A stretch of 49,298 bases of DNA from IMG/VR virus record IMGVR_UViG_3300042946_000728, positions 1-49,298 of that record; one strand, written 5' to 3'. Shown here piece after piece: positions 2,278 through 46,187 of the stretch. The position numbers and the translations under genes are program-made. Numbering within the stretch: the stretch's first letter is position 1; each line of letters begins with the position of its first letter. The stretch comes from a virus. The notes below the pieces were generated by a model. The model searched no databases. It was not told where the DNA came from and worked only from the letters and a program-made list of their open reading frames with translations.

Positions 2278-2280
2278 GGA

Positions 2281-3350: not shown

Positions 3351-3354
3351 AGAG

Positions 3355-3690: not shown

Positions 3691-3694
3691 AGGA

Positions 3695-4628: not shown

Positions 4629-4630
4629 GG

Positions 4631-5336: not shown

Positions 5337-5338
5337 TT

Positions 5339-5678: not shown

Positions 5679-5684
5679 ACCATG

Positions 5685-5713: not shown

Positions 5714-5758
5714 CCGCTTTTTCTTGATTTTTTCAATATCCGCCCTGAGCGTCCTCGC

Positions 5759-18039: not shown

Positions 18040-18312
18040 CTACGGCGCCTCCTCCTGCTTCCGGTGAATCACGGCTTCCAAGGCCGCGATCTTCTCGGGA
18101 ACGGCATTGGCGAAAGACAGGGCGGTCACATAGCCGGCGCGAACGGTTTCGAGGTTGGGGCCGGTAATGTCCAGCCGCACAAGATCGGCGTGCGCCTTCT
18201 TCACGAACGCCTCTATCGGCTTCTGGACGTGCTCTTGGAACACCGGATCCGCCGCGAGGCGTTTCAGGGCTTCGAGCGTTTCGATCTGCTTGGTGAGGTC
18301 GTTGGGCTTCAT
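18040..18312 (-). CDS. small helical protein after the portal
   Basis: A 90-aa helical protein, with a start at 18312 overlapping the portal stop by 4 nt (ATGA). It is amphipathic throughout, with coiled-coil potential over residues 5-35 and 70-85. No family is recognised. Small helical proteins directly after the portal are sometimes head-completion or packaging partners. Confidence 0.6.
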   Translation of the reverse strand: MKPNDLTKQIETLEALKRLAADPVFQEHVQKPIEAFVKKAHADLVRLDITGPNLETVRAGYVTALSFANAVPEKIAALEAVIHRKQEEAP

Positions 18313-20396: not shown

Positions 20397-23300
20397 TCAC
20401 TCGGCAAGGTCTTCGTCCCGATAAATCGTCTGCCGGGGCACGGCCATGAGGTTGACGCCTCCGAAGAATCGAAGCGCCTGCAACCCTCGGGGCTGGTAGC
20501 CCACACTGGCCGGATCGGGAATGGAAAGCATGGTTGTCTTCGTGCCGGTCTTCCTGTTGGTCCGCTCGGTCACGCCGAAACTCTCGCGCCCCACGCCCAA
20601 GCTGGCCAAGGTGCGGATGTTCTGCGCCGAGGGCGTCATGCTGGTTTCCCGCATGTTCATCTTCTCGACCGGCAGCCCCGCGGCGCGGAAGAACTCAACC
20701 TGTTCCTGCGGGGTCATGCTCAGTTTCACGGCCTGCTTGCGAAGGGCATCAATGGCGGCGCTCTTGTCCTCCGGCGAAAAGCCGGTTTTCTTGATGAAGT
20801 TCGATTCCGTCTTGAACCACTGTTCAGCCGAGAACGGCGCGAAGGCGGATTGCTTGCGCGTGCCCGTGCTCGGCACCGTCTTGGAGAGCCCCGGCGTATT
20901 TACGCGGATGGCGTCCAGCGGGCCGGCCTCGTAGCCAAGAGACTCCACCTTGCGCGTGCGCCGCGTCACCGGATCCACCATGCGCGTGGCAAGCTGCCGC
21001 CAGGGCGGAGGCACAATGCCAGCCGTGGCGAGGTCGTAGGCGCCTTCGCCCAGCCGATACGGGTAGCTCTTGCCTTCATCGAAAGAAGACATGGCCCACG
21101 GTGACAGCTTCGACAAGATGCCCATGGAGACGTATTCGCCCGACAGGTCGGTCAACTGCTCGAAGCCCTTGCCCGTCTTCCCCACCATGAAAAGTCCGAG
21201 CATGATGGCCTCCTTGAGATACGGGTAATTCCGGTAGCGCCACCACAAGTCTTTCGACTCGCCGGAACCATCGTCCAAGGTGAAATCCACGTCCCGCATG
21301 GCGCCGTGCGCGAAGATGATGCGCGCCAGCCGCGAAATGTTGATGCGGTTCGCCGTGCGGAAGGCGGCATCCAGCAAGCGCCCTTCTTCGTCCAAGCTGG
21401 CGCCCAAAATCGGGTCGTCGTCGTCGTCCGCTCCGGCAATTGCGGCGCCCAGCGCCACCAAGCCGGCCATGGTCGCCAGATTGGCCATGCCCTCAATGCG
21501 CTGCTGCTTGGTCCGGCCGGCCATGATGGTGTTCAGGGCCGCGTCAAAGGTCAGGCGCTTCAACTGCCGCGCCATGTTGTAAGGCCACTTGGCGAACGGC
21601 AGGAGCGCCCGCTTGAAGATTTGCCCCGTGGCGGTCATGGACTGTTGCGGATCCAGCCAGGCCGGCACGTTCTGATAATCCATGAGGTAGAGCACGGTCG
21701 TCAGATAAACGTCCCGATGAAGATCCGCCGGCGCCGTCTGCATCCAATTCCGCGTCCACGCCTTCTTGTCGGTCCCCGCGGGAATCTCGCCCCGGCGCTT
21801 GGCGTCCGCCCAAGCAACCTGCGCATGCGCCCGGTAGGCCGCGTATGCCATCTGCTGCTTCTGGCCGATGTCAATGCCGCCGTAGTTGACGCCTTGCAGG
21901 AACGCGCCCCCCACGTTGAGCCGCGCCAACTGCTGTTTCACAGAGATAGTCGGGTCAATCTCCATGGCCTCCAGGCCGGTTTGATCCTCGAACAACTCCC
22001 GCGGCACAATGGCGGCAATGCGCTGGCCTTGCCTGCTCGGCATGCGGTCAGTGATGAACCCGCGAAGGAGATAAGCGAACTCCCACCCGCTCAACCGTGC
22101 GGCGCGCACATCGCCGGCGGCCAAGCTCAACACGGCGTAGAGTAGCCGATTGCCCGTGCGCACGGCCTTGATAAGCTCGTTGCTCGCCCAATTCGTGATT
22201 GTGGTGAAGGGCGTTGCCAGAAGCCCCGCGTTCAAACGCTCCAGAAGCCCCGCCAGAATCTTGGTGATGATGTTGTTCGACACCTGACGCACGGCGCCAA
22301 GCATCAGTTCGCGCTCGACCTCCTTGTGAATCATCAGGCCGCGCCCACGGAGTCGGAATGCGTCTCCGAGTAGCTTGGCCATGGCCGCCCCATCCTTCGG
22401 GCTCAAAGCGCCCGTGATGGCCGGGAAAGCGTCAGGATGCAGGCGCTTGGCGAGCTTGATGGCGTCCAAGAGCTTATTGAACGTCTGATCCACCGGAACG
22501 AACATCCCGCGCTCCTCCAGCGGAATGCTGTCCAGAGGCACGGCCGCCGCCTCGATGAGCCGTTGGCGGGTCAGGACGCGGATCTTCTCCCGATGCGCCT
22601 CCATGGCCCGGATGCTGAACCCGTCAAAGAGGTTCTTGATGTTGCCGGAGCGCCGCGCCTCGCCGGCCTTGATCTTGCGGGCGCCGGAACGGAAGCGGTT
22701 CAGGAGGCTGCTGATTACTGCCACCAGCGTTTTCGCCTCGGCCACGTCCGGAGTGTAGCCCTCGACATAGGGCATGTCCTCCAACGGCATGGCGCCGAAA
22801 AGGTCGCGCAACTCCTGCGGCCACTGATTGAACAGGTCGCGCAAGGCGTGCCGGTTGAACTCCGCCGTCATGGTCCCGTTCGGCCCCATGTAGCGCGCTT
22901 CCTCCATGCCCGGCATGATCCAGCGGTCCAGATAGTGCGCCGCTTCTGGATAACTCGCGTGGAAGTCCTCGTAAATCTTCTGCTGCACGTCCGCGGTGAT
23001 GGTCTGCAACAGAAGATGCCGCCCGCCCTCGATCTTCGGCCCGAGGATGAACACGCCTTCCGTGGTCGGCACCGTATCACCCTCGCGCAACTGCATGGCC
23101 CGCGCCTTGTATTCCGACATGGTGCCGGCGCGCATGTTGAACGTCCGAAAGACAAACTGCCCCTCGTCGTCAATCCTTTCGACTTCGAGGCGGGCCGCCA
23201 CGGGTAGGATTTCATCCAAGAACCCCTGCAACCGCTTCTTGTTCTTCTGCCAGAACTTGGGATAGCCAAAGGCGCGGGTGATGTCGTCGCGCATCTGCTC

Positions 23301-26300
23301 CATCATGCCGTTGATGGTCGCGGCAACCAGCGCCTCGTTGCGCCTGTTGTCCAAAATCGCCTCCTTTGCCCCCGGAGCGTAGAACTCCAGCTTGTCCAGG
23401 CGCCCGCGGAGCATGGTCGCGTAGAACTCCTTCGGGTCGGTCGCCATGCGCGCAAGGTTCTCGGCGTCCGAAATGGCGCCGGCAAACGTCCGGCTGCTGG
23501 CCGTCTGTGCCCGATAGGCCGCCACCATTTCCGCGTCATGGTCAATGGACGCTTGCACCTGTTCCACCCGCGGGGCGGACGCGGCGGCCACCGCCACCCC
23601 TTCCGCGGCCTTGTCCGCCTCCTCGTCCTGCATGTCGGCGCGGCGTTCGGCCGAACGGTCGGGAAACTCTTCGCGCACCGCCGGAAACACATCGTCCACC
23701 GATTCAATGCCGCGCCGGCGAAGCTCGGCCCGAAGCGTGTTGCGCGTGGCCTTGGCGATCTTGTGAACCATGGCGCCGGTAATGCCTTCCTCCGCCCCGA
23801 TGTCCCGCATGGACCGGCCGGCAGACAAAGCCTCCCACACGCGCCGCGGACGCGCCGGAAGCGTGCCTACGATTTCCCTGACGGTCGCCAAGTCTTCCGC
23901 GCTCACACGGGCGCTTTCGGGCGCCCGCACGTTGTCTTTCCCGGTCGTGCCGCCGTCCTGCCCCATGGGCGCGTCCAGTTCCCCGCCGCGCCGGCGAGCC
24001 GCGCCCACCGCGCTGCGGAACATGCCGTTCAACTCGTTCTTGATGATCCGCGAGGCATACGCCCCAAAAGGCACCCCGCGGGCCTCGTCAAACGTCTCGG
24101 CCGCCAGAACCAAACCCAGCCGCGCCGCCTGCAAGCGGTCGTCAAACTCGACATTCGGGATGTTGGAATACTTCTCCGCGAAGTAGGTCGCCAACCCCAG
24201 GTTGTCCGAAGTCAGGGCTTCGACACGGCGCCGGCGCTCGGCTTCGTCTTGGCCAGCCTCCGCGCCAGAAACATTACCGCCGATTGGGCGACGGTGGGTT
24301 TCGCTCCAGAGGTCCATGAGCCGCGTTGCGGCTTCGTTGTCTTGGGCGAAGAACTCATCGAAATCAGCATACCCGCGGAGCCGCGCCTGTTCAAGCAACC
24401 AACCCGCTTGCCGCTCCATGTAGTCGCGCATGGCCACCGGAGGCGCCGAGGCGGCGGGCGGAACAGACTCGTCCTCGTCTTCGGCGGCGGCCCTTCCGGC
24501 TTCCGCTTCGGCCGCAAGTCGGCTTGCCTCTTTCTCTGTCAGGTCCGCCAGTTCGGCTTTCAACCGGTCGTATTCCTCCTGATACGGCCATGTGTCCATG
24601 TCCGCCCGGTCCAAAATCTTCTGCTGGTTGGCAATGATGTTGGCCGCCTCTGCGCGGCGCGAAACAACGGTTTCCGAAAGCTCCTCCAGCCGCGAATACA
24701 AGGTCGCGGCGCTGGTCACGCGCCCAAAGTTCAGGTTGGGGTCTTGATCCAGCGCGGTTTGCAGGCGGTAGGACGGAACAAGCTGCGTGATATATCGCTC
24801 CTCGAACCCTTCGCCTTGGTCAGTGGTCTTCTCGCTCAACTCGACGTGAAGCCGGATCGGCACACCGTTGACCGCAATGTTGGTCACAGGCGGCAACTGC
24901 TGCGAGGTTCCGCCGACCGGATTCAGGTCGGCCATGGGAACGCGCAGCGCCTCCGTGATGGCCTCCGCCGCCGCCGTGCGTGTCTCGAACGCCTGCCCGC
25001 CTACGGTGATTTGAATCCCATCAGCCGTGATAGCGCGCCCGAGGGCTTCCATTTCCACCATGGCCGGCTCGTTCCGCTCGGCGCGTTTCACTTCGCGGCT
25101 GAGAGTCTTGGCCGCATATTCCTTGCCCCATCGGCGTGAAGATGCCTCGCGTTCATGCCCTTCCCGCGAGGCGTCCAGTTCTTTCAGGCGCATGCCAATT
25201 TCAAACATGCGCTGACCGAATGGACCGGAAAGCACGGCGCGCTGTTCGGCCAGGGTCATAACCTCGTCGGCCTCCTCCAGTGAACGCCCTGTCACCTTGC
25301 CCGAAAGCGCCATGGTCGTGAACCGCTGCTTGGTTTCGAGTTTCTGCCACAAGGCCGCGTCCAAGGTGTCCTTCATGCCGTAGCGCCAAAGCTCCACGTC
25401 CACACCCATTTCGCCGTGGATGTTGCCTTGCCGGAACACGCGCCCGTCCCGCTGCTCCAGTTCCGCCGGCGTCCAAGGCACGTCCAGATGGTGAGCGGCA
25501 ATCATGCGGCGCTGCATGTTGACGCCGGTGCCTAGCTTTTGCGTGGAACCAATCACAAACCGGATGGTTCCATCGTTCACCATGTCGAAAAGCTGCTGCT
25601 TCTTCTTGTCGTTGTCCCACTTCTTATCGGTGATAACGGCGATCTGTTCGGCCGGCACGCCGCGGGCAATCAGCTTCGCCCTAATGTCGTCGTAGAGGTT
25701 GAACGTGGTCCCCTCACTCTTTTCGGGATCCAGCGGCAACCGAAATGTCCCCGCCACCGCTCGAAAGAGGTCAATCTTGGCGTTGTTGAAGATGTCCCCG
25801 AAAATTACCTGCGTGCCCTTGTAGTCCTTCGTCTGCTGGTAAAGCTCCATGGCGCGGTCCAGCATGACGTTGACCTTGCTGTTGGGCTCGTCCTTGGCGC
25901 GAGGCTCCACAAGCCGGATGTCCACCGCCGCCGCCCTGCTGGCCATGAACGCTTGCATGGGAACGGCGGTCAGGCTCGGGTTGTTGGCAAAGTCGTCGGC
26001 CCCAAGGTCGCCGTAGGCGTCCAGAACGCGGCGGATATACTGCACCCATTGAGCCACCGCGCTTGTGCGGTTGACCGTCACCAACTGCGGCTTTCCGCCC
26101 TTGATGCCGGGGCGGTCTTTCACAACCAAGTCCTCGCCAAGTTTCACATCGGCGGCCAGCCGCAGGAAAGTCGCCCACTCGGGGATGTTGATAACCTCGG
26201 AGAGACGCTGAACCTCTTTGTAGTCGCCGCCGGGAGTCATTTCGGAAGCGGTCGCCACGCGGGCGAACTTGCTGACGAATTGGTCGAAGTGCGTCACCCC

Positions 26301-29300
26301 GTATTCCTGCAACAGACGCGGCGCCACCAGCCGCACCATGTTCCAAATCTCGCCCAAGGTGTTCGTGACGGGCGTGCCGGTCATGGTGAAGACGTTCTTC
26401 CCGCCCATGCGCTCCTGAATGTAGCGCGCCCGCATGAACAGTGAGTAGCCGCGCTTCGAGAAAGAACCGTCAATGCCCTTGGCTTCGAGCTTGGTTGAGA
26501 ACGGCATCTTCTTGAACTGATGCACTTCGTCCACAATCAGGGCGTCCACCCCAAGCTGTTGGAAGTTCAGAAGTCCGGTGTCCGTTTGGCGCTCGGATGC
26601 CTTGGTGATGGCCGTTTCCAACCGCTCGATCTGCTTGACCAAGTTCTTGACGGTCGGCGGCTTCCGGCGCATCGCCTTCGCTTCTTCCAAGCTGTCGAAC
26701 CCTTGGGCGCGAAGCGAATCCAACATTTCGTCAATGAGGCTCGTCATGTGCGCAATCTCGACTTCGGGATCGTCCTCGATGAGTCCAAAGGTAGAGTGCG
26801 CGATTACCACGGCGTCCCAATCGCCGGCCGCAATGCGCATCAGGAACTCGCGCCGCTTGTCGCCGGTAAGCTCGTCTTTGCGGCCGACCAGCACGCGAGC
26901 GGTCGGTGCCATGCGGGCAATCTCCTTGGCAAAGCCTTCCAGCGTGGCGTTGTGAACCACGATCATGGGCTTCTTCGCCATGCCCAGGCGGCGCATTTCG
27001 AGCGCGATGGCGCTGCCGATGATGGTCTTGCCGCCACCAACACCGTGCGCAATCAGTCCAAAGCCCTCCTGAATCGCCCGCCAAATGGTGTTCTTTTTGT
27101 CGGGGTAGATGTCGAAATCCTTGTTGGCCCAAGGGAATTGCAGGAATTGTCCGTCATAGTTGCGCTGCGCGTGCGCGTTGACTTCCTTGTTGTAAATGTC
27201 AGCCAACTCCTGCGAAACGCTTTCCGAGGTTCGAGCCCACTGGATGAAGTGCGCGTTGAGCTTGGTGGCCGCCTCCCGGCTTGCCGCCGTGGCCGCATCG
27301 TCCACTGTCTTCTTGCCGTTCTCGTCCCTGTTCGAAATCTCGATTCGCCGGAAGTTCAGAAGCGAATCCATCATTTCCGGCACGCTCAACCACCGCGTTT
27401 CAAATGCGGCAGCCCCGTCCCCTGAACGGTGCGAGTCTTTCATGTCCACCGTCCACCGGTCGGCGGTCGCGCCATCTTTGCCGGTCATGTAGGTCAGCTT
27501 GGCGCCAACGTAGCCAAGGCTTCTCAAGAACCGCTCGTAGATCTCGGCCGGAACCCATGTTGCGCCGATGGAGAAAAGAATGTCCTCCGTGCCCACCCTT
27601 TCCGGCTGCACGGCCTCCAACAGTCGGACGTTGCGCTCGTAGTCCGGTCCGCTGTTTTGGGCAACCTCCAGCTTTTCGCGCACGTTGCCAGAGAGGTATT
27701 GCTCCCGCGTGAGGATTTGCCCCGTGTCCGGGTCGCGGACGGCAATCTGACGCTCCACCAAAGCGCGCTCGACTTGCTCCGGCGTGCTGCCCGTCAGAGA
27801 AGCAATGAAAGAAGTGTCCACGCGCCCGCGCCACCCCAAGGAGATTCCGAAAGCATCCTCCAGGCTGTCAGCGGTGGTCGGCTCGTTGCGCGGCGCCAGC
27901 ACTCGCTTACGGAAGATGTCCGCCTTGGTGTATTCGGTCTTGCCTCGAAGCGACTTGGCAATGTCCTTCACCGCGGCGGCAATGCCTTTGTCGCGGCCCT
28001 TTTCAACCTCGGCGCCCGCCAGCCGGAAATAATCAGGGTCGTCCACGAAAAGCGCCTTGTTCTTCCGGTCGTGCATCTGACCGTGCTTTTTCACAAAGGC
28101 ATCGTAGGTTTCGTTCAGCGCCTTCCGGTTCTCCTCGATCTCCTCGTCCGTGGCGCTCTCGGAAAGCTCCAAGTCGTATTGACCGTTCAGCGCGTCCCGC
28201 ACTTCCAAGAAGGCGCGCACCCGCGGCGCGTTCTTCGGGTTGTTCAGGTCGGCGTCCGGCGCCTCCTGCCCGTGGAAGTAGAACTTGCCGTCCGTCTCGA
28301 CAATGTTCCCCATCTTGACCACCCCCGCGTAGGTGCGGGCGTCCGAAGTGGAGGCATCGCTTCCAAAGACGTTCTCCGGCAGCAAAGGAAGGGCTTGCGC
28401 CAGCGTAATTTCCGGCGGCCGGTTCGGGTCGCCGTGGACCGTCATTTCCTTTTTGCCGTCCTCGCGCCCGGCGAACATTTCGCCATCGTCGGCCAGAAGC
28501 CCCAAGACGTTGCCGGGGTTGCGCGCAAAGTAGCCGTTGACGCGAATCGGGTCGCCCTTGTGGGTTGTGGAATCGCCCAAGGTGATAAAGTCCTGCGCGC
28601 CCTCGAACGGCCGGCCGTCTTTCTTGCGAAGCACAATGATGTCCGTCACCACGTCCGTTCCCGCGTTGGCCTTGAAGGCGTCATTGGGCAAGCGGTAGGC
28701 GGCCACCATGTCCGCACGGTCGGCCAGCCAGCGCCGAATTTCCGAGTTGCCCTTGTCCATGGTGAAGGCGGACGTGATGAAGACCATCACGCCGCCGGGC
28801 TTCAACTTGGTCAGGGTCTTCCCAAAGAAGTAGTCGTGCAGGTTTTCCACCGGCCCGCCCATGGCCTCCATCGCTCGATCCGCCACCTTCACGTTGGCGA
28901 ACGGCACGTTGCTGATAGCCAGGTCAATGGAGTTGTCCGCAATGTCGGCGTTCTGGAACCCCGCGTTCTGAATGTCCGCTTCGGGATAGAGCGCCTTGAG
29001 GATTTGCGCGGTCAGAGGCTCCAACTCGACGCCGAAAAGTCGGCTGCGGTCGGCCAAGCTCTCCGGCATGAGCCCGAAGAAATGCCCAATGCCGGCGCCA
29101 GGCTCCAAGACGTTGCCGCCTTTGAAGCCCAACCTCTCCGCAATGTCCCACATGGCGGCCACAATCGGCGTGCTGGTGTAGTGCGCGTTGATCGTGCTGC
29201 GCTTGGCGCCGCGATACTCCGCATCGGTCAGGAGACTCTTGAGGGAGTTGTGATACTTGCCCCACTGTTTTTGCCAGCTTTCCAGCTTTTCGGCCTCCTG

Positions 29301-32300
29301 CTCCTCTTTCTCGGCAAGGTCGTTCCAGTAGCTCGATCCGCCCCATGAACTGCCACGCTCGCGGTAGTCCTTGGCCGTTTCCCGATACCGCGTGATGGCG
29401 CCGCCGGCAATCTCGTCCGCCTTTTCATCATCGAAGACTTGCGGCACCGCGCCCCAGCCGGAGAACTGCACCAATTCGGCTTTCTCCTCCGCCGTGGCCT
29501 GCCGGCCCTCGGCGGCCATGGCTTTGACAATCTCGATGGCCCGGATGTTGGCCTTGATCTTGGAAATGGCGCCCCGCGGAGCCAGTTCGGCGCCGCGCTC
29601 AATGACGTGGTTCCGGTCGGGGCTGCCAACCGGCGGGCGTTCCCTTACGCTAGGCTCTCCAGAAGTTGCAGGGCGCTCTTGCGTTCCGCCCGTGTCAGAG
29701 GTGTTTCCGCCTCGATTTCCTCGTCCTCCATTTCCGGCGTCTCCCACATCGGGAGCAGTTCCTTGAGAACTTCCACTTCCTCCCGGTTGTGCAACATCGT
29801 TGCCACTATCAGCGCGTGTGCCTTCGCGTCCATCCACCGGAGAAAGCTTTCTCTTTCGTCTGCGAGCCACTCCCGAATTGCGCTCGGCCTTGCGCTGTCC
29901 AACCAAGCCAGAAAGCAAGTCTCCCAATCCGGCCCCGCTCGAAGTCCCGTCCGCTCTTCCGGGGTTAGCTCTCCGAGAAGAAGCCTTGCGTCCTCGGCGT
30001 CCAGCGGCGGGCTTTGAAGTGTCGCGCTCATTGTCAGTGTCCTCCTTGATACTACTGGCGGCCAAATCATCGTCAACCGCTTCCTTGGGCGCAATGGTGT
30101 CGGTGCCCTCGTTCGTTGGCGCCTCCGGCTTTTCCGCCGGCGCGGTCGCCCCCGCATAGACCTCCGACCACTTCACTTGCTGGTCCGGGTCACTGTTGCT
30201 GCCGTTGGCCCACACTTGAGAAAGCGTCTTCGGGCTGATCCGGCCGGGGAACCGTTCCACCAATGTCCGCGCCAAGGCTTCCGGCGTGTTCACCCCGCGA
30301 CTCCAAAGCCCGTTAGCCAGCCGAGACATGGCCGAAATGGCCTCGGGCGTGTCTGCAACGGCCGCAATCGGGGTCGGCGCCGATGCCGCCGCCACACCCT
30401 CCACCACGCGCACGGGAATCTTCGTCCACCCGGCCAGCATCGCCGCCTGTGCCGTGGCGTTGCCGTCAATAATCGTGAACGTGCCGTCTCCGTTGTCCGA
30501 AACATCCAGCGGCGCCCGCTTCTTGCCGGTCGGGTCGCCCTCGATGTTCTTCAGCATGCCCTTGATGGCCGTTTGCCGCGGGTCGGGCTTCAACCCGGCC
30601 AAGAACCTTGCATCCTGCAACTCGTTCTTGCGGCTGATGAGGCTCGAAAGCGGCACCACGCGCACCCGGCCGTCTACCAAATCCCACTTGTCATAGGCAA
30701 ACGCCTCTTTGATGGCATCCGGGTATTGCGCCAGCCGGCTCGCGTCCACATCGCCCGCGTAGTCGAAAATGTTGTTTTCCGAAATAATCGGTTGGCGGTC
30801 GGACCCCTCGGCGGTAGTGTCTTCTTGTATGGGTAACGACGAAACGAACGCGAAAGCCCTCTCGGTGGCGGATTCCAACTTCCCTGAGCCCCCCGACTTC
30901 CCGAAGGATGTCAACGAAATGGGTGGGGATGATTGGACGGAACTTTCCGCTTGGGCTCCCAAGGCTCGCGCCTTCATGGATGCAGTTGAATCCAGGTTGG
31001 CCGCCGCTTCCGCAAGCTGAGTGACCTTGTAATCGGCTCGGCGCGCCGTTTTCAACAAGGCGGTGCTTCTTGCGTCGTCCGACTCGGTTTTCAGCTTGTT
31101 TACGGCATCCCGCCAAATGTCATACCACTTATGAATGGCAGACTTGGCTTTCAGCATTGCCGGCTGAATCACCAAAACCTCTTTCACGATGGGGTCTAAT
31201 CCTTCCCCATCTTTGACAAACTTCAGGTTGATGTCCTTATAGGCAGATGCGGGGTCGGCGTGCCTGTCGTAGATGCCCGCCACCCCGCCCGGCGAATAGA
31301 CCGTGTAACCCTTGGCCTCCATCGCCCGGATAAACCGCGCTGCCACTTGTCGCGCCGGCCCCGGCCCGCCCGCCGGAGCCTCCACCGTGGCCCGCAACAA
31401 GTCGCTTGGAATCTTGGGCGAGCGGTCAATTTTCGACACGGCCGTTCCCAGCTTCTTGACCGCGTTCCTGAACTGTTCCCGATACGGCCTTGCACCCGCC
31501 TGACGTGCCGCATCCACCAAGTCGGCAAGAAATCCGTCGCGCTGTTTTAGCGCCTCGCCGTGAATGGCGCGCACCGCGTTCTTCAACTGTCCGCGCTGCG
31601 CCATGGGCACCGGAGCCGCGCCAGCCGGAGGCAAGAACTTCTCGAAGTCCGCGAACAACGCCTCAAGTTCGGCGTCTGCGTCTGCCGGCTTTTGGTCAAC
31701 CGCCGCCGGCAAGTATTTCTCCGCAATCTTCTTGGCAATGCCCAAATCGGACACCCTGCTCAACCGGATAGACTTCTGCGGAGAGGCCAAGCGCAACGCC
31801 TCTTTCTGAATCCCCTCCGCAAGAGTCGTCCACTTGCCCGGCGCGGCTTCCACCGCATCAATCGCAAGGTTCAGAACCGCCGCCTCGTCAGAACTCAAGT
31901 TGAAAGCTCTCTCGATCTCCAAAGAGCGGACGTAATCACCGGCGGCCGGGGCTTCCGCTGCCTCGGCCTTTGCGGGCTCCGCCGGCCTCCCCGCCGCCTC
32001 CAACCGCGCAACCTCGGCCTCGATAGCCGCCGCCACACCCTCGAACTCCGCCCGCTTCTCCGAGTCCAGCGTTCCAAGAAGCTCGTCGCGCAACCACCGC
32101 GCCACGTCCCGAAGCACTTCCGCGATTCGCGCCGCCAGCCCCGGATTGCTCGCCGTCACCGCGTCCACGGTCTGCGCCATGCCCACTTGCTCGTTGGTCG
32201 CGCCGTCCAGCTTCGCGGACAGATACATGCGCCAGAACTCCATGCCGAGAACCGCGTCCGGCATGGTCGCCGCCGCCGCCTTCCAGTCGCCCCCGTTCTT

Positions 32301-35300
32301 GGTCAACTCTGCGGCGTGGTAGGCCATGACCACTTGCCGTTGCGCCTCCTCGGGCAATGCCTTCCAGTCGGCCGCCAGTTCTTCCGCCGACCGCACGTTG
32401 GCCGTGGCCCCGTGCAAGACCTCCTCGCGCCATGTCGCCCGAATCTTGGCCTCGCGTTGCCCAGGCTGTAACCCGGCCAAGTTCTGCGCCAGTGTCGCCC
32501 GGTCCACATAGACCGTGCCGCGGAAATACACCATGCCTCCGTTTGGCATCGGAGCAAAAGAGCCGCGCTGCGCCGCCCCCATCTTGGCCAACTGCTCCGC
32601 CGTCACCACTTGCGTCCACTGTTTGTTGACGTGCAGGCGATCCGTGGCCACCACCTTGAGCGGCAGCTTTCCACTGAACGCCTCGGGAACCGCCGCGCCA
32701 AACATGCGCACCGCGGTATTGCCGTTCACGGGCTCGGTAAAGACAGATGGAACACCCTCCGTGTAAGCCGGAAGACCAACTTTTTTCAGCCCTGAAGCCA
32801 GCAAGTTGACCGTCTCGCCGTTGCGAAGATTCACCACCGCCATGGAGTCACCGTTGGTAAACCCAACTACTTGGCCCATCTGCTGCGGACGAATAGAGCC
32901 AACGCCGGGGACAAGCACCATGTCACCAATACCAACCGTGACTTTCTGAGATTTTGCCGCCGCCTTCTTGGCCTTGGGCGCCGCCTTCGGCTTCTTGGCT
33001 TTCGGCGCGGGCTTTGCCTCCTGTGTCGCCGGAGCAAAAACGTAGTCCTTCAGGTCCGTGGGCATCAAAAACGTCTGCCCGTTGGTCGCAAGGTTCTTCT
33101 CCGCGGAGTATTTGTCCTTCCACTTGATATAGACGTTGCCCCGGTTGTCCACCGTGCGAATCACCCCGCGCTCTTTCGGATCGTGGACGTTGTAAATCGT
33201 CCTGCCCCGCGAGTTTTCGACAAACCGCTTCTGGTCGTCCAAGTGCTCGTTGCCAGCCGCCTTGGAAGCCTTGATCCGGTCGTCGCGCTCCTGATTCCAC
33301 TTCTCAGAATCGAAGCCTTCCGCCGGTGCCATTGGTTCAGCCGGCGCTTCTAACAATTTGCTGCCAGTTTCCTGCTGATTAGTAGTTGCGGGTGCCTCGA
33401 CCGGTGCCACCTGTCCACTTTCCGCCGTTTCCTGAACAGGTTCCGGTGTCGTGTTGACCGCTTCGACAGGTTGCGCACTCTCCGGCGCTTGGATCTCTTC
33501 AATGACGACTTCTCCGTCCGCCCCGCGCTGCAAGGACTTCACCCGCGCCCCGAAAAGCCTTTCCGCGGCCTCCCGGCTCGACGCCTGCCCGCTTTGCGTC
33601 ACCGTCACCGGGCGCTTACTCCCCTTGGGTGTGAAAATGATGCGCGCCCGCCACGTCCCAGGCCCGCCAGCCGCCGCGCCACCCTTCACCGGAGCCGCCG
33701 CCGGACCCTCCTCGCCGCCCTGCTGGCCCGCCTGCGTAGTGACCGGAGGCGCCACCACCGGCGGAGTAACCGCCTGCTGAGTCTGCGGCGCGGCCTGCTG
33801 CACCACCGGAACGGGCTGCTTCTTCTCCGCGGCGGGCTTCTTCCCCTTCGCCGGAGCAACCGGAGCCTGCGCTTGCTGCTGCTGCGGAGCCTGCTGCGGA
33901 ACCACCGGAGGCGCCGCAACCATGCCGTCCGCCGCCGCCTCGGCCAACTGATCCGCCTCGGTCTTCCCGAAATACACCTTCGCCGTCTCCGGCGCCACCT
34001 TCGCCACCTTCGCCCGGAAGGAATCCGGCACAATGATCCGATTCCCGCGCACATACGCCCCCACGTTCAGAAGCGCCTGCTCCTGCGTCGGCGTCAAAGG
34101 CGTCAAGCTCACCATGCGAATGGCCGCGTCAATCGCCTCGCGGTCGCCATCAGCCACCCCGCCCAACTCGTTCACCGCACGCCGCGCACCCTCCCCAATG
34201 CCCGCCATGTCGGCCAGGATGCTCGCATATTCGACCATCAACGCCTGCCGCTGCCCAGCCGCCGCCGAAATCTCGGGATTGACCACCTGTTGCGCCGGCC
34301 CGTTCCCAGCCGCTTGCCACACCACCGGCGGCAACGTCTTCAACTTCCGCGCCAACTCCGCGTCTTTCTCGACCACCGCCGCCAGCCGCCCCTTCAAATC
34401 CGCCACCATCTGCGGATTCTGATACTCCTGCATGGTCTTGGCCTGCTCGTAGGTAATCGGCTCCTCGGGATAGCGCGTGTTGTGGTCCTCGACCCACTGT
34501 TTCAGCGCCTTCTCCTGCGCCTTGCGCATCTTCCCGATGTCGTATTGCGCCGCCGCCCAGCCGACCGCCGCGTGCGGCCCGGTCATGCCAACGCCACCAA
34601 TGAATCCCGCGAACGCTTGCGCCACCGCGTCCCCAAAAGTCGCCCCGCTCTGACCAAATGCCGCAACACCTTCCTCCATTGCCTCACCGCCCGCGCTCGC
34701 CCAAAGCTGCTTCGAGAAATCCACGCCCAAATTGCGCGCCTGCTGCCCGACCGTCAGCGTTCCGCCAATCGGCCGCTCGACCTTCCCCAGCTTGAAAAAC
34801 TTCTCCGCCAACCCGTCCAGCCGCGAAATCTCCCGCCCCGCACGGTTCAGCGTCAGCCCCAGGCGCTCCGCGCTCCCCATCCACTTGCCCAAGGTCAGCA
34901 ACTTGCCCGCGCCCACGCCCACCAACTGACTGGCAATCTCAATGCCCATTTCCTGCATCGGCGCCACCTGCCCACCGTAAAACGCCTGCTGCAACGGCCC
35001 AAAGAATGACGACTCCGCAATGGTGTTGTTCTGCGAGGCGTATTCCATCGCCTTGTGCTGAATCTCCAAGTCGAACTGGCTGTTGAGCGCCGCCGCCTCA
35101 AACGCCGCCCAATAACTCGGGCTCAACGTCTGCTGGTAGGCCGCCAACGCCTGCCCCATCTTGCTCCGCGGGTTGAGCAAGTCGTTCTCCCATGTGAACC
35201 GCCCGCCCCCAACAAGCGAATGGTAGTTGTCCAGCGCCGTCTTGATCCGCCCCGCCGCCGCACGCAACTCGGGCTCGGTCATCACCCCGCTATGCAGCCC

Positions 35301-37895
35301 CCGCTTCAATGCCTCGATTTCCTTCTTGAGCGCACTCCCAGCCTCTCCGCTCCACATCTTATCCCGCACCCCACCTAAGTTCCACAGATAGCTCGACGGC
35401 AGCGCCATCAGCAACGCCTCGCCCACACTGTCAGGCATCCGGTCTTTCAGCGCCCGGTTGAAATTGTTCTGCCACGCAATCGTCTGCGCCCCGATCAACT
35501 CGCGTTCCGCATCACTCAAAAGCGGGCTGAACCCATACTTCTGCGCAATGTCGTCGCCCATCAGCTTCCCCGCACCAACCATCACACCCACAGAGGAACC
35601 ATAGGCGTTCTGCAACGTCCCGTTGAGCCAGTTCTTGGCCTGCCCCGCAAAACTCTCGTCTCCAAGCAGCCTGTCCCGCGCCGCAATGAACGCCGGCAAG
35701 TTGAAATCCACCTTCCGCCGCGCCTCCTGCGCATACTCGGCCATGAAAGCCTCCCGCGCCGCATAGTCGTTGACCGCCGCAATGCGCTCCGGCTCGGTCA
35801 ACACCGCTTCTGCCACCATGCGCCCACCCATCGAAGCAAATGCTTCACCCGCCGCCCTGACCAATGCGGCTTTCCACGGGCTCATCGCCGGATTCTCCGC
35901 CTGCGCCTTCCGATACCGCTCGGCCGCGTCACTCGTCCCCGTCTTCGCCCACGCATTGAAAGCATCCTCGACCGACCCCATCCCCGGCTCGGTCCCGTAG
36001 GCCGTCTTCAACAACATCCTCGCGTCCTGCGCGCTCAACTGCCCCGTCTTGTGCAGCCACGCCGCATCCAAGCGCCGCTCCGAAGCCGAAACCCCAGCCT
36101 GCCGCGGGTCAATCTGCGCGATGATGGCCGCCCTTTCCCCGTCCGTGGCCGCCTGCCACTGATCCATCACGTCCCGCAACCTCTCCGCGTCCCACCGCCG
36201 CCCCTCCCAAGCCGCCTCGGCCTCCTTCGCCCAACCCTTCGCGTCCAGTTCCTTGCGAACCTCGGGCACCAAAGGCGTGCTCCCATAGGCCGACTTCTTG
36301 AACGACTCCGCAAAATCCGCCGGCATCCCCACATACTCCGGCATGCCCCGGTAGTAGTTGCCCGCCGCGAAACTCGGTGACTGTTGCGCCAACGGATCCA
36401 ACTCGACATACCCCACCCCGTATCTGTCGAACTTGAACTTGCCGATGGGCTCGTCCACCGTCTTCTTGCTCCACGGCAACGGCACACCCCAAAACTTCGA
36501 GCTTGTCTCTTTCGTCGCGTAGAGGACGCCCCCCTCCAGCTTGTAGCCCGGCGGCGCCTGAATGTCCGTCTGCCCCGCCAGCTTCGCGTTCAATTGCCGC
36601 TCCATCGCCTCCGGCGTGAACCACTCCGGCGGCGCATGCGTGTAGCCCGTCGCCTTCCGCACCTTCTCCGGCAACGCAATCGGCGCCTCCGCGGACAGCT
36701 TGGCCACCGCCTCCGAGGTCCGCCCGCTCATCTTGGCCGCCGTCCACTGATTGACGTTCTTGGCCGACCCCATCGAGTCCACCGCCGCCTTGAATCCCTC
36801 CTCGATTGCCGCCCCCACCGCCGCGTCCTTCGCCTGAAACTCGTTCCAAAGCGTCTCCATCAGGTCCGGCGCCGCCGGCCGAATCGGACTGTTCGACGGC
36901 TCCACCCCCGCCAGCGTCAACGCCAAGTCCGAAATGTAGCCCTGCACCGCCGCCGTCCTCTCCGGCATCCGCCCCGTGTTCGGCAACGTCTCCGTCTCCT
37001 TGTAGATGAGCTTGGCCTTGTCCGCCGCGCTGTCCTTCAAAAGCTGCTCCTTCCACGCCGCTTGATAGCTGACTTCCGCCTTGGCCCGATAGGCATCCAA
37101 CTCGGCCATGGCCTGCTTCTCGACCTTCGCCGCCACCACCCCCTCAAGCTGCGCCTTCTCCTGCTCCAACGCCTCCCGCTGCGCCCCGTCCACCCGGATG
37201 TCTTCCAACTTCCGGTCAATGTCTTTGATGCGCGCCCGGTCGCTGGCAATGTCCTTCCCAATCAGGCTCAACGCACCCGTGGCCGCCGCCGCCTCCTGCT
37301 TCAATACCCGCGTCCGCTCGGCCAAGTTCTCTTTCAACTCGGCGTCCGGCTTCAACTTCGCATCCGGCGCATACCCCGCCCACTTCCACGCCATGCCAGG
37401 CACCACCTTGTAGATATGCCCGTCCTTCTCCACCGTCTCTCCCGTGGTCGCCGGATCCTGCTCGATCAGCTTGCCGTTGTCGTCCCGCACATACGCCTTG
37501 CCAGTCACAGGGTCGAACATGGTGTTCGTCTTGCCCCACTTGCGCATGGGCGCCCCGCTCGGCGCCGTAATCGGAACCACCGTGCCATCAGGCCGCGTGA
37601 AGAATGCCACCGCATCACCCTTGAGCTTCCCGGCCTCCTCCTTGTTCGCCCTCTCCCGGTCGCGCTCCAAGGTCCGCTGCTCGCGCTCCGCCGCCGCCAG
37701 TGACCGCCGCGTCTCAGACGCCGCCCGCCTCTGCTCCGTCTCAGCCCTGCGAATCTCTTTCTCGCCGGCCGCCGTAGGTGTGAACGTCCCTGCGCTGCGG
37801 CTGGCCAACCCGCGGTCCACCAGACTCCGAAGCGTCTTGGAGTCGTTCGAGGCGCCACCGCCGGCAACCCGCATCAGGTCGTCAATGGATGCCAT
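20397..37895 (-). CDS. giant polyvalent virion protein (5,832 aa): ParB-like, MTase, SNF2 helicase and sigma modules
   Basis: A single open frame of 17.5 kb. In order I see: coiled coils (about 45-290); a long alpha-helical region to 1300; a Gln/Pro/Ala linker (1315-1400); a segment with REEVLHGA (about 1823) that looks like a degenerate metallopeptidase; a possible RelA/SpoT-like segment (2130-2270, KDINLKF with EVLVIQPAML); a ParB-like nuclease segment (2410-2490, VVPLSSL and DGNATAQAAMLAGW); a low-complexity linker (2600-2760); an N6-adenine methyltransferase (EPGAGIGHF at 2931, NVPF at 2996); an SNF2-type helicase (GVGGGKT at 3618, DEVH at 3789, QRDGRVFRQGN near 4147); a sigma-70-like domain (4560-4735); and a hydrophobic C-terminal region (5180-5560). 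The methyltransferase-helicase pair resembles DarB-type antirestriction proteins, which are injected with the DNA. Ejection into the host is inferred. Confidence 0.85.
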   Translation of the reverse strand: MASIDDLMRVAGGGASNDSKTLRSLVDRGLASRSAGTFTPTAAGEKEIRRAETEQRRAASETRRSLAAAEREQRTLERDRERANKEEAGKLKGDAVAFFTRPDGTVVPITAPSGAPMRKWGKTNTMFDPVTGKAYVRDDNGKLIEQDPATTGETVEKDGHIYKVVPGMAWKWAGYAPDAKLKPDAELKENLAERTRVLKQEAAAATGALSLIGKDIASDRARIKDIDRKLEDIRVDGAQREALEQEKAQLEGVVAAKVEKQAMAELDAYRAKAEVSYQAAWKEQLLKDSAADKAKLIYKETETLPNTGRMPERTAAVQGYISDLALTLAGVEPSNSPIRPAAPDLMETLWNEFQAKDAAVGAAIEEGFKAAVDSMGSAKNVNQWTAAKMSGRTSEAVAKLSAEAPIALPEKVRKATGYTHAPPEWFTPEAMERQLNAKLAGQTDIQAPPGYKLEGGVLYATKETSSKFWGVPLPWSKKTVDEPIGKFKFDRYGVGYVELDPLAQQSPSFAAGNYYRGMPEYVGMPADFAESFKKSAYGSTPLVPEVRKELDAKGWAKEAEAAWEGRRWDAERLRDVMDQWQAATDGERAAIIAQIDPRQAGVSASERRLDAAWLHKTGQLSAQDARMLLKTAYGTEPGMGSVEDAFNAWAKTGTSDAAERYRKAQAENPAMSPWKAALVRAAGEAFASMGGRMVAEAVLTEPERIAAVNDYAAREAFMAEYAQEARRKVDFNLPAFIAARDRLLGDESFAGQAKNWLNGTLQNAYGSSVGVMVGAGKLMGDDIAQKYGFSPLLSDAERELIGAQTIAWQNNFNRALKDRMPDSVGEALLMALPSSYLWNLGGVRDKMWSGEAGSALKKEIEALKRGLHSGVMTEPELRAAAGRIKTALDNYHSLVGGGRFTWENDLLNPRSKMGQALAAYQQTLSPSYWAAFEAAALNSQFDLEIQHKAMEYASQNNTIAESSFFGPLQQAFYGGQVAPMQEMGIEIASQLVGVGAGKLLTLGKWMGSAERLGLTLNRAGREISRLDGLAEKFFKLGKVERPIGGTLTVGQQARNLGVDFSKQLWASAGGEAMEEGVAAFGQSGATFGDAVAQAFAGFIGGVGMTGPHAAVGWAAAQYDIGKMRKAQEKALKQWVEDHNTRYPEEPITYEQAKTMQEYQNPQMVADLKGRLAAVVEKDAELARKLKTLPPVVWQAAGNGPAQQVVNPEISAAAGQRQALMVEYASILADMAGIGEGARRAVNELGGVADGDREAIDAAIRMVSLTPLTPTQEQALLNVGAYVRGNRIIVPDSFRAKVAKVAPETAKVYFGKTEADQLAEAAADGMVAAPPVVPQQAPQQQQAQAPVAPAKGKKPAAEKKQPVPVVQQAAPQTQQAVTPPVVAPPVTTQAGQQGGEEGPAAAPVKGGAAAGGPGTWRARIIFTPKGSKRPVTVTQSGQASSREAAERLFGARVKSLQRGADGEVVIEEIQAPESAQPVEAVNTTPEPVQETAESGQVAPVEAPATTNQQETGSKLLEAPAEPMAPAEGFDSEKWNQERDDRIKASKAAGNEHLDDQKRFVENSRGRTIYNVHDPKERGVIRTVDNRGNVYIKWKDKYSAEKNLATNGQTFLMPTDLKDYVFAPATQEAKPAPKAKKPKAAPKAKKAAAKSQKVTVGIGDMVLVPGVGSIRPQQMGQVVGFTNGDSMAVVNLRNGETVNLLASGLKKVGLPAYTEGVPSVFTEPVNGNTAVRMFGAAVPEAFSGKLPLKVVATDRLHVNKQWTQVVTAEQLAKMGAAQRGSFAPMPNGGMVYFRGTVYVDRATLAQNLAGLQPGQREAKIRATWREEVLHGATANVRSAEELAADWKALPEEAQRQVVMAYHAAELTKNGGDWKAAAATMPDAVLGMEFWRMYLSAKLDGATNEQVGMAQTVDAVTASNPGLAARIAEVLRDVARWLRDELLGTLDSEKRAEFEGVAAAIEAEVARLEAAGRPAEPAKAEAAEAPAAGDYVRSLEIERAFNLSSDEAAVLNLAIDAVEAAPGKWTTLAEGIQKEALRLASPQKSIRLSRVSDLGIAKKIAEKYLPAAVDQKPADADAELEALFADFEKFLPPAGAAPVPMAQRGQLKNAVRAIHGEALKQRDGFLADLVDAARQAGARPYREQFRNAVKKLGTAVSKIDRSPKIPSDLLRATVEAPAGGPGPARQVAARFIRAMEAKGYTVYSPGGVAGIYDRHADPASAYKDINLKFVKDGEGLDPIVKEVLVIQPAMLKAKSAIHKWYDIWRDAVNKLKTESDDARSTALLKTARRADYKVTQLAEAAANLDSTASMKARALGAQAESSVQSSPPISLTSFGKSGGSGKLESATERAFAFVSSLPIQEDTTAEGSDRQPIISENNIFDYAGDVDASRLAQYPDAIKEAFAYDKWDLVDGRVRVVPLSSLISRKNELQDARFLAGLKPDPRQTAIKGMLKNIEGDPTGKKRAPLDVSDNGDGTFTIIDGNATAQAAMLAGWTKIPVRVVEGVAAASAPTPIAAVADTPEAISAMSRLANGLWSRGVNTPEALARTLVERFPGRISPKTLSQVWANGSNSDPDQQVKWSEVYAGATAPAEKPEAPTNEGTDTIAPKEAVDDDLAASSIKEDTDNERDTSKPAAGRRGRKASSRRANPGRADGTSSGAGLGDLLSGLVGQRKAERNSGVARRRKRKLSPVDGREGTRADSGNDVAQPGGSGSSQGTAPDVGDAGNGGRGNRGGNTSDTGGTQERPATSGEPSVRERPPVGSPDRNHVIERGAELAPRGAISKIKANIRAIEIVKAMAAEGRQATAEEKAELVQFSGWGAVPQVFDDEKADEIAGGAITRYRETAKDYRERGSSWGGSSYWNDLAEKEEQEAEKLESWQKQWGKYHNSLKSLLTDAEYRGAKRSTINAHYTSTPIVAAMWDIAERLGFKGGNVLEPGAGIGHFFGLMPESLADRSRLFGVELEPLTAQILKALYPEADIQNAGFQNADIADNSIDLAISNVPFANVKVADRAMEAMGGPVENLHDYFFGKTLTKLKPGGVMVFITSAFTMDKGNSEIRRWLADRADMVAAYRLPNDAFKANAGTDVVTDIIVLRKKDGRPFEGAQDFITLGDSTTHKGDPIRVNGYFARNPGNVLGLLADDGEMFAGREDGKKEMTVHGDPNRPPEITLAQALPLLPENVFGSDASTSDARTYAGVVKMGNIVETDGKFYFHGQEAPDADLNNPKNAPRVRAFLEVRDALNGQYDLELSESATDEEIEENRKALNETYDAFVKKHGQMHDRKNKALFVDDPDYFRLAGAEVEKGRDKGIAAAVKDIAKSLRGKTEYTKADIFRKRVLAPRNEPTTADSLEDAFGISLGWRGRVDTSFIASLTGSTPEQVERALVERQIAVRDPDTGQILTREQYLSGNVREKLEVAQNSGPDYERNVRLLEAVQPERVGTEDILFSIGATWVPAEIYERFLRSLGYVGAKLTYMTGKDGATADRWTVDMKDSHRSGDGAAAFETRWLSVPEMMDSLLNFRRIEISNRDENGKKTVDDAATAASREAATKLNAHFIQWARTSESVSQELADIYNKEVNAHAQRNYDGQFLQFPWANKDFDIYPDKKNTIWRAIQEGFGLIAHGVGGGKTIIGSAIALEMRRLGMAKKPMIVVHNATLEGFAKEIARMAPTARVLVGRKDELTGDKRREFLMRIAAGDWDAVVIAHSTFGLIEDDPEVEIAHMTSLIDEMLDSLRAQGFDSLEEAKAMRRKPPTVKNLVKQIERLETAITKASERQTDTGLLNFQQLGVDALIVDEVHQFKKMPFSTKLEAKGIDGSFSKRGYSLFMRARYIQERMGGKNVFTMTGTPVTNTLGEIWNMVRLVAPRLLQEYGVTHFDQFVSKFARVATASEMTPGGDYKEVQRLSEVINIPEWATFLRLAADVKLGEDLVVKDRPGIKGGKPQLVTVNRTSAVAQWVQYIRRVLDAYGDLGADDFANNPSLTAVPMQAFMASRAAAVDIRLVEPRAKDEPNSKVNVMLDRAMELYQQTKDYKGTQVIFGDIFNNAKIDLFRAVAGTFRLPLDPEKSEGTTFNLYDDIRAKLIARGVPAEQIAVITDKKWDNDKKKQQLFDMVNDGTIRFVIGSTQKLGTGVNMQRRMIAAHHLDVPWTPAELEQRDGRVFRQGNIHGEMGVDVELWRYGMKDTLDAALWQKLETKQRFTTMALSGKVTGRSLEEADEVMTLAEQRAVLSGPFGQRMFEIGMRLKELDASREGHEREASSRRWGKEYAAKTLSREVKRAERNEPAMVEMEALGRAITADGIQITVGGQAFETRTAAAEAITEALRVPMADLNPVGGTSQQLPPVTNIAVNGVPIRLHVELSEKTTDQGEGFEERYITQLVPSYRLQTALDQDPNLNFGRVTSAATLYSRLEELSETVVSRRAEAANIIANQQKILDRADMDTWPYQEEYDRLKAELADLTEKEASRLAAEAEAGRAAAEDEDESVPPAASAPPVAMRDYMERQAGWLLEQARLRGYADFDEFFAQDNEAATRLMDLWSETHRRPIGGNVSGAEAGQDEAERRRRVEALTSDNLGLATYFAEKYSNIPNVEFDDRLQAARLGLVLAAETFDEARGVPFGAYASRIIKNELNGMFRSAVGAARRRGGELDAPMGQDGGTTGKDNVRAPESARVSAEDLATVREIVGTLPARPRRVWEALSAGRSMRDIGAEEGITGAMVHKIAKATRNTLRAELRRRGIESVDDVFPAVREEFPDRSAERRADMQDEEADKAAEGVAVAAASAPRVEQVQASIDHDAEMVAAYRAQTASSRTFAGAISDAENLARMATDPKEFYATMLRGRLDKLEFYAPGAKEAILDNRRNEALVAATINGMMEQMRDDITRAFGYPKFWQKNKKRLQGFLDEILPVAARLEVERIDDEGQFVFRTFNMRAGTMSEYKARAMQLREGDTVPTTEGVFILGPKIEGGRHLLLQTITADVQQKIYEDFHASYPEAAHYLDRWIMPGMEEARYMGPNGTMTAEFNRHALRDLFNQWPQELRDLFGAMPLEDMPYVEGYTPDVAEAKTLVAVISSLLNRFRSGARKIKAGEARRSGNIKNLFDGFSIRAMEAHREKIRVLTRQRLIEAAAVPLDSIPLEERGMFVPVDQTFNKLLDAIKLAKRLHPDAFPAITGALSPKDGAAMAKLLGDAFRLRGRGLMIHKEVERELMLGAVRQVSNNIITKILAGLLERLNAGLLATPFTTITNWASNELIKAVRTGNRLLYAVLSLAAGDVRAARLSGWEFAYLLRGFITDRMPSRQGQRIAAIVPRELFEDQTGLEAMEIDPTISVKQQLARLNVGGAFLQGVNYGGIDIGQKQQMAYAAYRAHAQVAWADAKRRGEIPAGTDKKAWTRNWMQTAPADLHRDVYLTTVLYLMDYQNVPAWLDPQQSMTATGQIFKRALLPFAKWPYNMARQLKRLTFDAALNTIMAGRTKQQRIEGMANLATMAGLVALGAAIAGADDDDDPILGASLDEEGRLLDAAFRTANRINISRLARIIFAHGAMRDVDFTLDDGSGESKDLWWRYRNYPYLKEAIMLGLFMVGKTGKGFEQLTDLSGEYVSMGILSKLSPWAMSSFDEGKSYPYRLGEGAYDLATAGIVPPPWRQLATRMVDPVTRRTRKVESLGYEAGPLDAIRVNTPGLSKTVPSTGTRKQSAFAPFSAEQWFKTESNFIKKTGFSPEDKSAAIDALRKQAVKLSMTPQEQVEFFRAAGLPVEKMNMRETSMTPSAQNIRTLASLGVGRESFGVTERTNRKTGTKTTMLSIPDPASVGYQPRGLQALRFFGGVNLMAVPRQTIYRDEDLAE
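29645..30031 (-). CDS. gene nested inside the giant gene, other frame
   Basis: A 128-aa protein read in the +1 frame relative to the giant gene, from ATG 30031 to TAA 29645. A perfect AAGGAGG (30047-30041) lies 9 nt before the ATG, the best ribosome-binding site noticed in the prophage. The product looks folded: acidic, rich in Leu/Glu/Trp helices (ARLLLGELTPEER, FLAWLDSARP, FLRWMDAKAHALI). The giant protein in the same DNA is low-complexity linker (Arg/Gly/Ser/Asp), so the nested frame seems the constrained one. Function unknown; family not recognised. It could be an older independent gene swallowed when the flanking genes fused. Confidence 0.75.
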   Translation of the reverse strand: MSATLQSPPLDAEDARLLLGELTPEERTGLRAGPDWETCFLAWLDSARPSAIREWLADERESFLRWMDAKAHALIVATMLHNREEVEVLKELLPMWETPEMEDEEIEAETPLTRAERKSALQLLESLA

Positions 37896-46039: not shown

Positions 46040-46100
46040 CGGTGGTTGATGCTGTTTTTGCTGTGTCATGCCGCTCGTTTCCTCTGTGTGGAAGGGTGGC

Positions 46101-46187
46101 GGTGAGGGAGGGATTCGAACCCTCGGTAGCCTTTTGGACTACGGAGCTTTAGCAAAGCTCTGCTTTCGACCACTCAGCCACCTCACC
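46101..46187 (-). tRNA. tRNA-Ser (anticodon GCT), probable prophage attachment gene
   Basis: An 87-nt tRNA gene on the minus strand: acceptor stem GGTGAGG pairing with CCTCACC, D arm, anticodon GCT in the loop CTTTGCTAAAG, a long variable arm typical of serine tRNA, and T arm GGTTCGAATCC. The 3' end faces the prophage, as expected when a phage integrates into the 3' part of a tRNA and restores it. It is downstream of the GH1 gene on the same strand. The exact crossover core cannot be fixed without the other prophage end. Confidence 0.95.

Follow-up and report, generated by a model that had tools for sequence, protein, structure and literature searches.

A giant polyvalent phage protein combining a DarB-type core with a sigma-70-family module: a candidate virion-borne sigma factor

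A viral DNA of 49,298 nucleotides (IMG/VR record IMGVR_UViG_3300042946_000728, positions 1 to 49,298; hereafter "the window") encodes a 5,832-residue protein in which an adenine methyltransferase–SNF2 helicase core of the DarB type is followed, within the same polypeptide chain, by a complete two-domain module of the sigma-70 family, and this module recurs in no fewer than ten separate giants related to it.

The mechanism towards which we lean, by a slight degree, is that this giant is packaged beside the portal, ejected with the DNA, which it protects, and uses its sigma module to direct the host RNA polymerase (RNAP) to phage promoters. The protein would most likely be built into the virion next to the portal; following ejection, the methyltransferase–SNF2 dyad would translocate along the DNA as it enters, methylating it or shielding it against restriction, while the σ2–σ3.2–σ4 array would bind the host core RNAP and bring it to the promoters of the phage ahead of the synthesis of any phage protein. 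An injected sigma factor of this kind would represent the host-polymerase-using counterpart of the virion RNA polymerase that N4 injects. As to the broader proposition that a phage family delivers both DNA protection and an RNAP-recruiting sigma factor on one ejected polypeptide, i.e., that a virion-borne sigma factor exists, we hold the considerations for and against to be in even balance. That the giant is packaged and ejected, that its enzymes are active and that its sigma module binds RNAP and confers promoter specificity are all predictions.

The giant open reading frame and its prophage setting

The open reading frame (ORF) had been placed by a first-pass annotation of the DNA at coordinates that proved exact (Table 1), the window position of residue r being 37895 − 3(r − 1). 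The frame is coding throughout, since GC3 lies between 0.71 and 0.87 in each block of 500 codons, and it is not an artefact of assembly because other metagenomes yielded related viral contigs in which complete giants are encoded, each in a single ORF (5,885, 6,067, 6,131, 6,235, 6,266, 6,294, 6,469, 5,885 and 8,656 aa). The possibility of an assembly artefact, which the same annotation had raised, is ruled out by the uniform coding signal together with the complete giants in independent contigs. The protein is polyvalent in that it is very large and joins several effector domains in one chain.

Table 1. Coordinates of the giant ORF, of its segments and of the neighbouring genes in the window
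Feature	Residues	Window position	Strand	Basis or remark
Giant polyvalent ORF	1-5832	20397..37895	minus	5,832 aa; stop codon in coordinates; ATG start
N-terminal region	1-1322	33930..37895	minus	common to giants G131 (49%) and G002 (30%)
EExxH segment	1717-1948	32052..32747	minus	REEVLH at 1824
Probable RelA/SpoT-like (small alarmone synthetase) fold	2090-2330	30906..31628	minus	Foldseek
Conserved domain (DPRQTAI...DNGDGTFTIIDGNATAQ..MLAGW)	2371-2507	30375..30785	minus	phrog_723 E 0.016; phrog_8071 E 0.019
DarB-like adenine methyltransferase	~2871-3260	28116..29285	minus	phrog_10089; motif I EPGAGIGHF, motif IV NVPF
SNF2-type helicase/translocase	~3590-4280	25056..27128	minus	PF00176 2e-6; PF00271 6e-5
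Sigma region 2	4564-4627	24015..24206	minus	PF04542 E 4.2e-8; 1.8e-9 on the excised module
Sigma region 4 helix-turn-helix	4663-4732	23700..23909	minus	TIGR02937; 2h27 superposition; RpoS 3.2-4 alignment
C-terminal virion-type region	4815-5832	20400..23453	minus	profile link to sister C-terminal type
Portal protein		18309..20369	minus	phrog_1216 E 4.3e-6; directly downstream of giant
Terminase large subunit		39365..41137	minus	phrog_24361 E 1.3e-8; upstream of giant
Major capsid protein		10172..11659	minus	phrog_334 E 1.7e-9
Tyrosine integrase, prophage end		44841..45803	minus	phrog_1 E 2.9e-44
tRNA-Ser(GCT), probable attachment gene		46097..46187	minus	probable host DNA beyond

The giant is thus surrounded by virion and late genes (portal, terminase, capsid), the capsid and tail genes coming after the portal, and in most relatives that extend far enough a portal homologue likewise follows the giant. 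Because the integrase lies beside tRNA-Ser and bacterial-looking genes are found beyond it, the phage is probably an integrated prophage adjacent to this tRNA gene. An att-type direct repeat was not found inside the window, and the flanking GH1-like gene had no close match in the one phylum sampled (centred on an Opitutus genome). The segment 46097–49298, in which tRNA-Ser is followed by genes that are probably bacterial (on visual inspection, one GH1-like and one SelO-like), marks the right boundary of the prophage. Two further genes may be mentioned: an ORF on the plus strand (12853–13899) amid the structural genes of the minus strand, which on visual inspection resembles a heptosyltransferase-type (GT9) glycosyltransferase and is possibly a moron gene, and a RecT-like single-strand annealing protein (1109–2614, minus strand; phrog_148, 2.1e-61).

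The DarB-type methyltransferase–helicase core

The methyltransferase and helicase motifs, which the first-pass annotation had described as standing in DarB-type order, are indeed all present in that order: EPGAGIGHF (residue 2931) and NVPF (2996) are followed by GVGGGKT (3618), DEVH (3789), TGTPVTNT (3839), GSTQKLGTGVN (4116) and QRDGRVFRQG (4148), yielding a DarB-like dyad of an adenine methyltransferase with motifs I and IV and then an SNF2 enzyme with the series from Walker A to motif VI. Residues ~2870–4560 match the DarB-like family phrog_10089 with E = 0 (profile positions 1633–3290 of 4647), and the profile searches suggested in that annotation gave matches to the DarB-like family, to SNF2 (PF00176) and to sigma factor profiles (PF04542, TIGR02937). 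By analogy with the DarB family, the dyad would protect the incoming DNA through methylation and/or translocation, as proposed in PMC5512222.

The sigma module

The module comprises residues ~4559–4745, i.e., about 190 aa. In sigma factors, region 2 contacts the clamp of the core RNAP and the −10 promoter element, while region 4 contacts the −35 element and the β flap. Residues ~4559–4725 match TIGR02937 (sigma70-ECF) with an E of 4.8e-12, above the cut-off, and the sigma factor family phrog_351 matches the module at 1e-18. A profile made from 13 sigma-module homologues aligns with RpoS (E 2.7e-28) in two blocks corresponding to region 2 and to regions 3.2–4; PF04542 is matched by all 13 homologues and PF04545 by 11 of them, whereas region 4 of the window protein, taken alone, has no Pfam match. 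The linker between regions 2 and 4 resembles the sigma finger (3.2) (ELDAPMGQDGG...). Since the homologue profile skips RpoS residues ~171–221, that is region 3.0, the module is not filed as a group 1/2 (RpoD/RpoS type) sigma factor.

The structural data are in agreement with the profiles. In the AlphaFold model pLDDT is about 90 in region 2 and about 85 in region 4, and comparison of the model with the PDB gave 54 matches with E ≤ 0.001, the best 50 of which are sigma factors. The model can be superimposed on the N-terminal domain 2 of SigE (8b3z) with Z 12.4 and 1.1 Å over 78 residues and on region 4 of SigmaE bound to −35 DNA (2h27) with Z 10 and 2.1 Å over 68 residues. Having both the fold of region 2 and the helix-turn-helix of region 4, the module is a genuine and complete two-domain member of the sigma-70 family; PF04542, TIGR02937, the RpoS profile and the superpositions all bear out the earlier claim that a sigma-70-like module resides inside this chain. 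With σ2, σ3.2 and σ4 intact, recruitment of the host RNAP would be the expected activity.

Distribution of the sigma module and selection acting on it

Relatives were gathered by using core and C-terminal alignments to scan viral contigs, a back-translated single-sequence search with the sigma part having returned no close relatives. A sigma profile built from the first clade members and then run on every locus detected the module in the window and in loci L008, L177 (5,885 aa), L178 (6,469), L179 (6,266), L180, L181 (6,067; L225 is a second locus of this contig), L197 (6,294), L206 (6,131), L012, L013–L016 (one lineage), L017/L171 and L217/L218. In consideration of the near-copies (L008/L178, 98% identical in the core, and L180/L017), these are counted as at least ten distinct related giants, measuring 5.9–6.5 kaa when complete; L017/L171 was left out of the complete giants owing to a frame break where the contig ends join. 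Wherever a DarB-type core is present, the sigma module is always C-terminal to the helicase.

The remaining matches of the sigma profile were confined to short ORFs (L131, L090 and a 235-aa ORF of L216). The last of these (MT838074.1, positions 6–710), from a human faecal phage contig, has 29% identity and is a possible stand-alone relative of the module. No sigma module was detected by this profile in the DarB relatives with ~33% identity from fetched phages and bacterial genomes, and plasmids, which have many DarB-like relatives at about 33%, offered none spanning the sigma part among the matches listed. When whole records were searched independently with Pfam, the split was the same as with the sigma profile, PF04542 being found in seven records and not found in L009/G002, L010, L011/G004, L018, L019, L022 and a Parabacteroides giant.

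In a tree of the core, the sigma-bearing rows fall into one clade of 14 rows (SH-aLRT 100) and the more distant L206, a long branch; the fewest changes, as obtained by a quick method, are three. Twelve of the 14 rows carry the module, which is therefore not indispensable, given that it was not detected in the other two (L009/G002 and L011/G004).

The sigma module is under purifying selection, with a constraint as strong as that on the core: in close pairs, to which the estimate was restricted since more distant pairs are near saturation, dN/dS is 0.015–0.088 for the sigma module and 0.053–0.092 for the core, with a value of 0.158 for the sigma module of the L217–L218 pair. Between distant members, on the other hand, the module is only 28–39% identical as opposed to 70–77% for the core (77% and 39% for core and sigma, respectively, in L177–L197), a fast divergence that may reflect either replacement or a changing promoter preference. 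Because at least ten giants hold it, purifying selection acts on it and it is kept when the core is replaced (see below), the sigma module is conserved and not a fluke. The idea that it is a functionless, degenerate passenger of domain shuffling appears highly improbable: mosaicism is rampant in these giants and two members of the clade are devoid of a detected sigma, but dN/dS of 0.015–0.158 in close pairs, an intact two-domain structure and a slot that is fixed across the clade speak against it.

A second, weak helix-turn-helix resembling sigma region 4 is seen about 450 residues past the sigma module in L177 (15440–19048; PF04545, 3e-4) and L178 (16400–20041; PF08281, 0.0098).

Module exchange among the giants

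Two relatives illustrate how segments are exchanged within an otherwise recognizable framework. The 8,656-aa giant G002 (L168 + L169 + L170; ORF 4147–30114, minus strand) is 30% identical to the window protein in the N-terminal region, 59% in the core and 57% in the C-terminus, and its sigma slot is occupied by about 2,260 other residues with matches to RadC (7e-29), DarA_C (1e-10) and, below the cut-off, ART-PolyVal. To our knowledge, the only polyvalent proteins from which RadC had previously been reported are those of conjugative elements; in L012, RadC and sigma are found together. The 5,885-aa giant G131 (L229 + L230), belonging to the same phage type and accompanied by portal, capsid and tail proteins that are strongly homologous to those of the window, has an N-terminus 49% identical to that of the window giant and is 63% identical to it over the 1,325 residues of sigma module and C-terminus. 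In place of the DarB-type core, G131 has a kinase resembling zeta/PezT toxins (3.6e-6) and a segment that resembles methylases of other phage types. The sigma module and the C-terminus being retained while the core is replaced, it follows that sigma stays with the virion-type framework and that it is the enzymatic cargo that changes. As a side observation, the N-terminal part of a sigma-bearing giant (L178, 635–10000) has a CysS_C-like match (3.8e-6) and a weak HD-domain match.

These exchanges are relevant also to the possibility, rather unlikely in our opinion, that the sigma module is a tether that contacts host RNAP or promoter-like DNA and thereby either anchors the injected methyltransferase–SNF2 protein or sequesters RNAP, shutting down host transcription. 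The fusion to an SNF2 ATPase, for which RapA, an RNAP-associated SNF2 enzyme, provides a comparison, the absence of σ3.0 and σ1.1 and the quick divergence of the module between distant members would fit such a function. However, a mere tether would need none of the completeness represented by the retention of regions 2, 3.2 (the sigma finger) and 4, and G131 keeps the module in spite of having no DarB-type SNF2 partner.

The C-terminal region and the link to the virion

The last 1,000 residues of the giant have no direct family match in Pfam or PHROGs. Nevertheless, the C-terminal type of the window is linked by hhalign (prob 90, E 1.6e-6) to the sister type borne by the majority of the other members, and of six such C-termini four match phrog_6651, an internal virion protein (best 7.5e-16); through this sister type, the C-terminus of the window giant is related, at the level of profiles, to the internal virion protein family. 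The "hydrophobic look" formerly attributed to this region turns out to be modest (best 19-residue Kyte–Doolittle mean 1.64, at residue 5470), and it is the match of the homologues to internal virion proteins that has been added to it.

As regards characterized DarB-like proteins, gp69 of phage JC1 (4,515 aa) was identified by 51 unique peptides in CsCl-purified virions (PMC9144972), while P1 DarB is a head protein whose first 30 residues suffice for packaging and whose entry into the cell is presumed (PMC9024508). Since the C-terminal relatives match phrog_6651 and both JC1 gp69 and P1 DarB are found in virions, packaging of the window giant is likely, and homology and gene context would also be consistent with its ejection. 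These same data make it improbable that the giant is not injected but acts late or at induction in the producing cell, with its sigma module serving late or structural genes and the rest of the chain serving assembly or acting against competitors; such a role would suit a gene lying inside the structural cluster, with which it would be co-expressed, but is at odds with the presence of the JC1 and P1 proteins in virions and with the internal virion protein match of the C-terminal relatives.

The N-terminal half

The N-terminal 2,000 residues likewise have no direct match in Pfam or PHROGs. By its position, and in comparison with P1 DarB, the region 1–1322 could possibly be the part responsible for virion incorporation. 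A metallopeptidase hub domain with an HEXXH motif is common, albeit not universal, in polyvalent phage proteins (Iyer et al. 2017), and in the window giant its only candidate counterpart is an EExxH variant at residue 1824, possibly a degenerate or variant zincin peptidase site. Most relatives, too, have an EExxH in their N-terminal half (e.g., DEEVAH, SEEVGH, REEVLH), this being a short motif of which chance copies are expected.

For residues ~2090–2330, we lean towards an alarmone synthetase fold. The best 17 rows of a Foldseek comparison with the PDB are small alarmone synthetases or GTP pyrophosphokinases (best E 5.9e-4), the confidence of the underlying model being modest, and the homologue L014 matches Pfam RelA_SpoT with an E of 0.029, below the cut-off. 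An Asp (in SDLLRATV) and a Glu (in KEVL) are invariant in five aligned sequences and occupy what we take to be the expected catalytic positions. A two-sequence profile of the segment found no match in the PDB, so that the fold comparison alone is informative.

Residues 2371–2507, for which a ParB-like identity had been put forward, form a real domain that is conserved in L013–L016, with 47–48% identity to L013, L014 and L016. Its ParB nature is less secure: the PHROG matches have E values of 0.016–0.019, a PDB profile search gave marginal nucleoid-occlusion-protein rows (E 0.37–0.43) with unrelated rows higher, and PF18763 (ddrB-ParB) has no match in the window giant, while being clear in the relative L206 (4.5e-9). 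All in all, the DarB core, the sigma module and the phage structural context of the first-pass annotation stand and its ParB assignment is weakly backed; the minus-strand orientation, the probable prophage location beside tRNA-Ser, the probable RelA/SpoT-like fold and the clade-wide conservation of sigma were absent from it.

Relationship to known systems

The closest comparison is with the DarB-like giants of Bcep22-type podoviruses (BcepMigl, 4,658 aa; JC1 gp69), which share the methyltransferase–SNF2 dyad (32–33% identity) and are likewise single, very large proteins encoded within the virion gene block, detected in virions in the case of gp69. Unlike the window giant, they have no sigma module by the giants' sigma profile in the fetched loci, BcepMigl included. 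P1 DarB is also a head-located methyltransferase–helicase with antirestriction function whose gene is beside that of the portal (PMC9024508, PMC5512222), but it is far smaller (251 kDa) and no sigma module has been described in it.

The N4 virion RNA polymerase, which is injected and transcribes the early genes, and its polyvalent relatives (PMC5512222) are similar in being virion-borne transcription components on very large proteins; however, N4 brings its own polymerase, whereas the window giant encodes only a specificity subunit of the sigma type that needs the host core RNAP. With two-domain sigma factors (ECF-like layout; the closest PDB profile matches are RpoS and SigA) the module shares regions 2 and 4 and the sigma-finger-like linker, differing from them in that it has neither region 1 nor region 3.0 and is embedded in a 5.8-kaa chain instead of being free-standing. 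The sigma factors encoded by phages (phrog_351, phrog_1740), jumbo phages among them, belong to the same sequence family as the giant's module; those of jumbo phages are described as recruiting the host polymerase (PMC7824862), and no polyvalent fusion is mentioned in that description.

The paper on polyvalent proteins covers the N4-type polymerases, and the word "sigma" occurs zero times in its main text (PMC5512222), which agrees, for that text, with the first-pass annotation, to which polyvalent proteins were known but not one with a sigma-factor module in the same chain. In the openly accessible literature searched, no polyvalent or virion protein turned out to have been described with a sigma module, a result that is not proof of novelty. 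The association of a DarB-type core and a sigma module in one chain, clade-wide, suggests a new variant among polyvalent phage proteins.

Implications

The question of how a phage gains the upper hand in the minutes just after entry is still open. The transcription aids known to be carried by virions are either a whole polymerase, as in N4, or a polymerase-modifying enzyme, as T4 Alt. If the reading proposed here is true, a sigma factor within a DarB-type antirestriction giant would represent a third route, one that couples evasion of restriction with immediate early transcription. The giant family also offers a picture of module exchange at defined positions: one member has ART-like, RadC and DarA_C segments where the others have sigma, and a second has exchanged the methyltransferase–helicase for a different methyltransferase and a zeta-like kinase. 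Since the sigma module, at about 190 aa, is small and variable between phages, and its slot is fixed, its promoter specificity is directly testable with purified core RNA polymerase, and the prediction of a virion-borne sigma factor is, therefore, as amenable to experiment as it is surprising.
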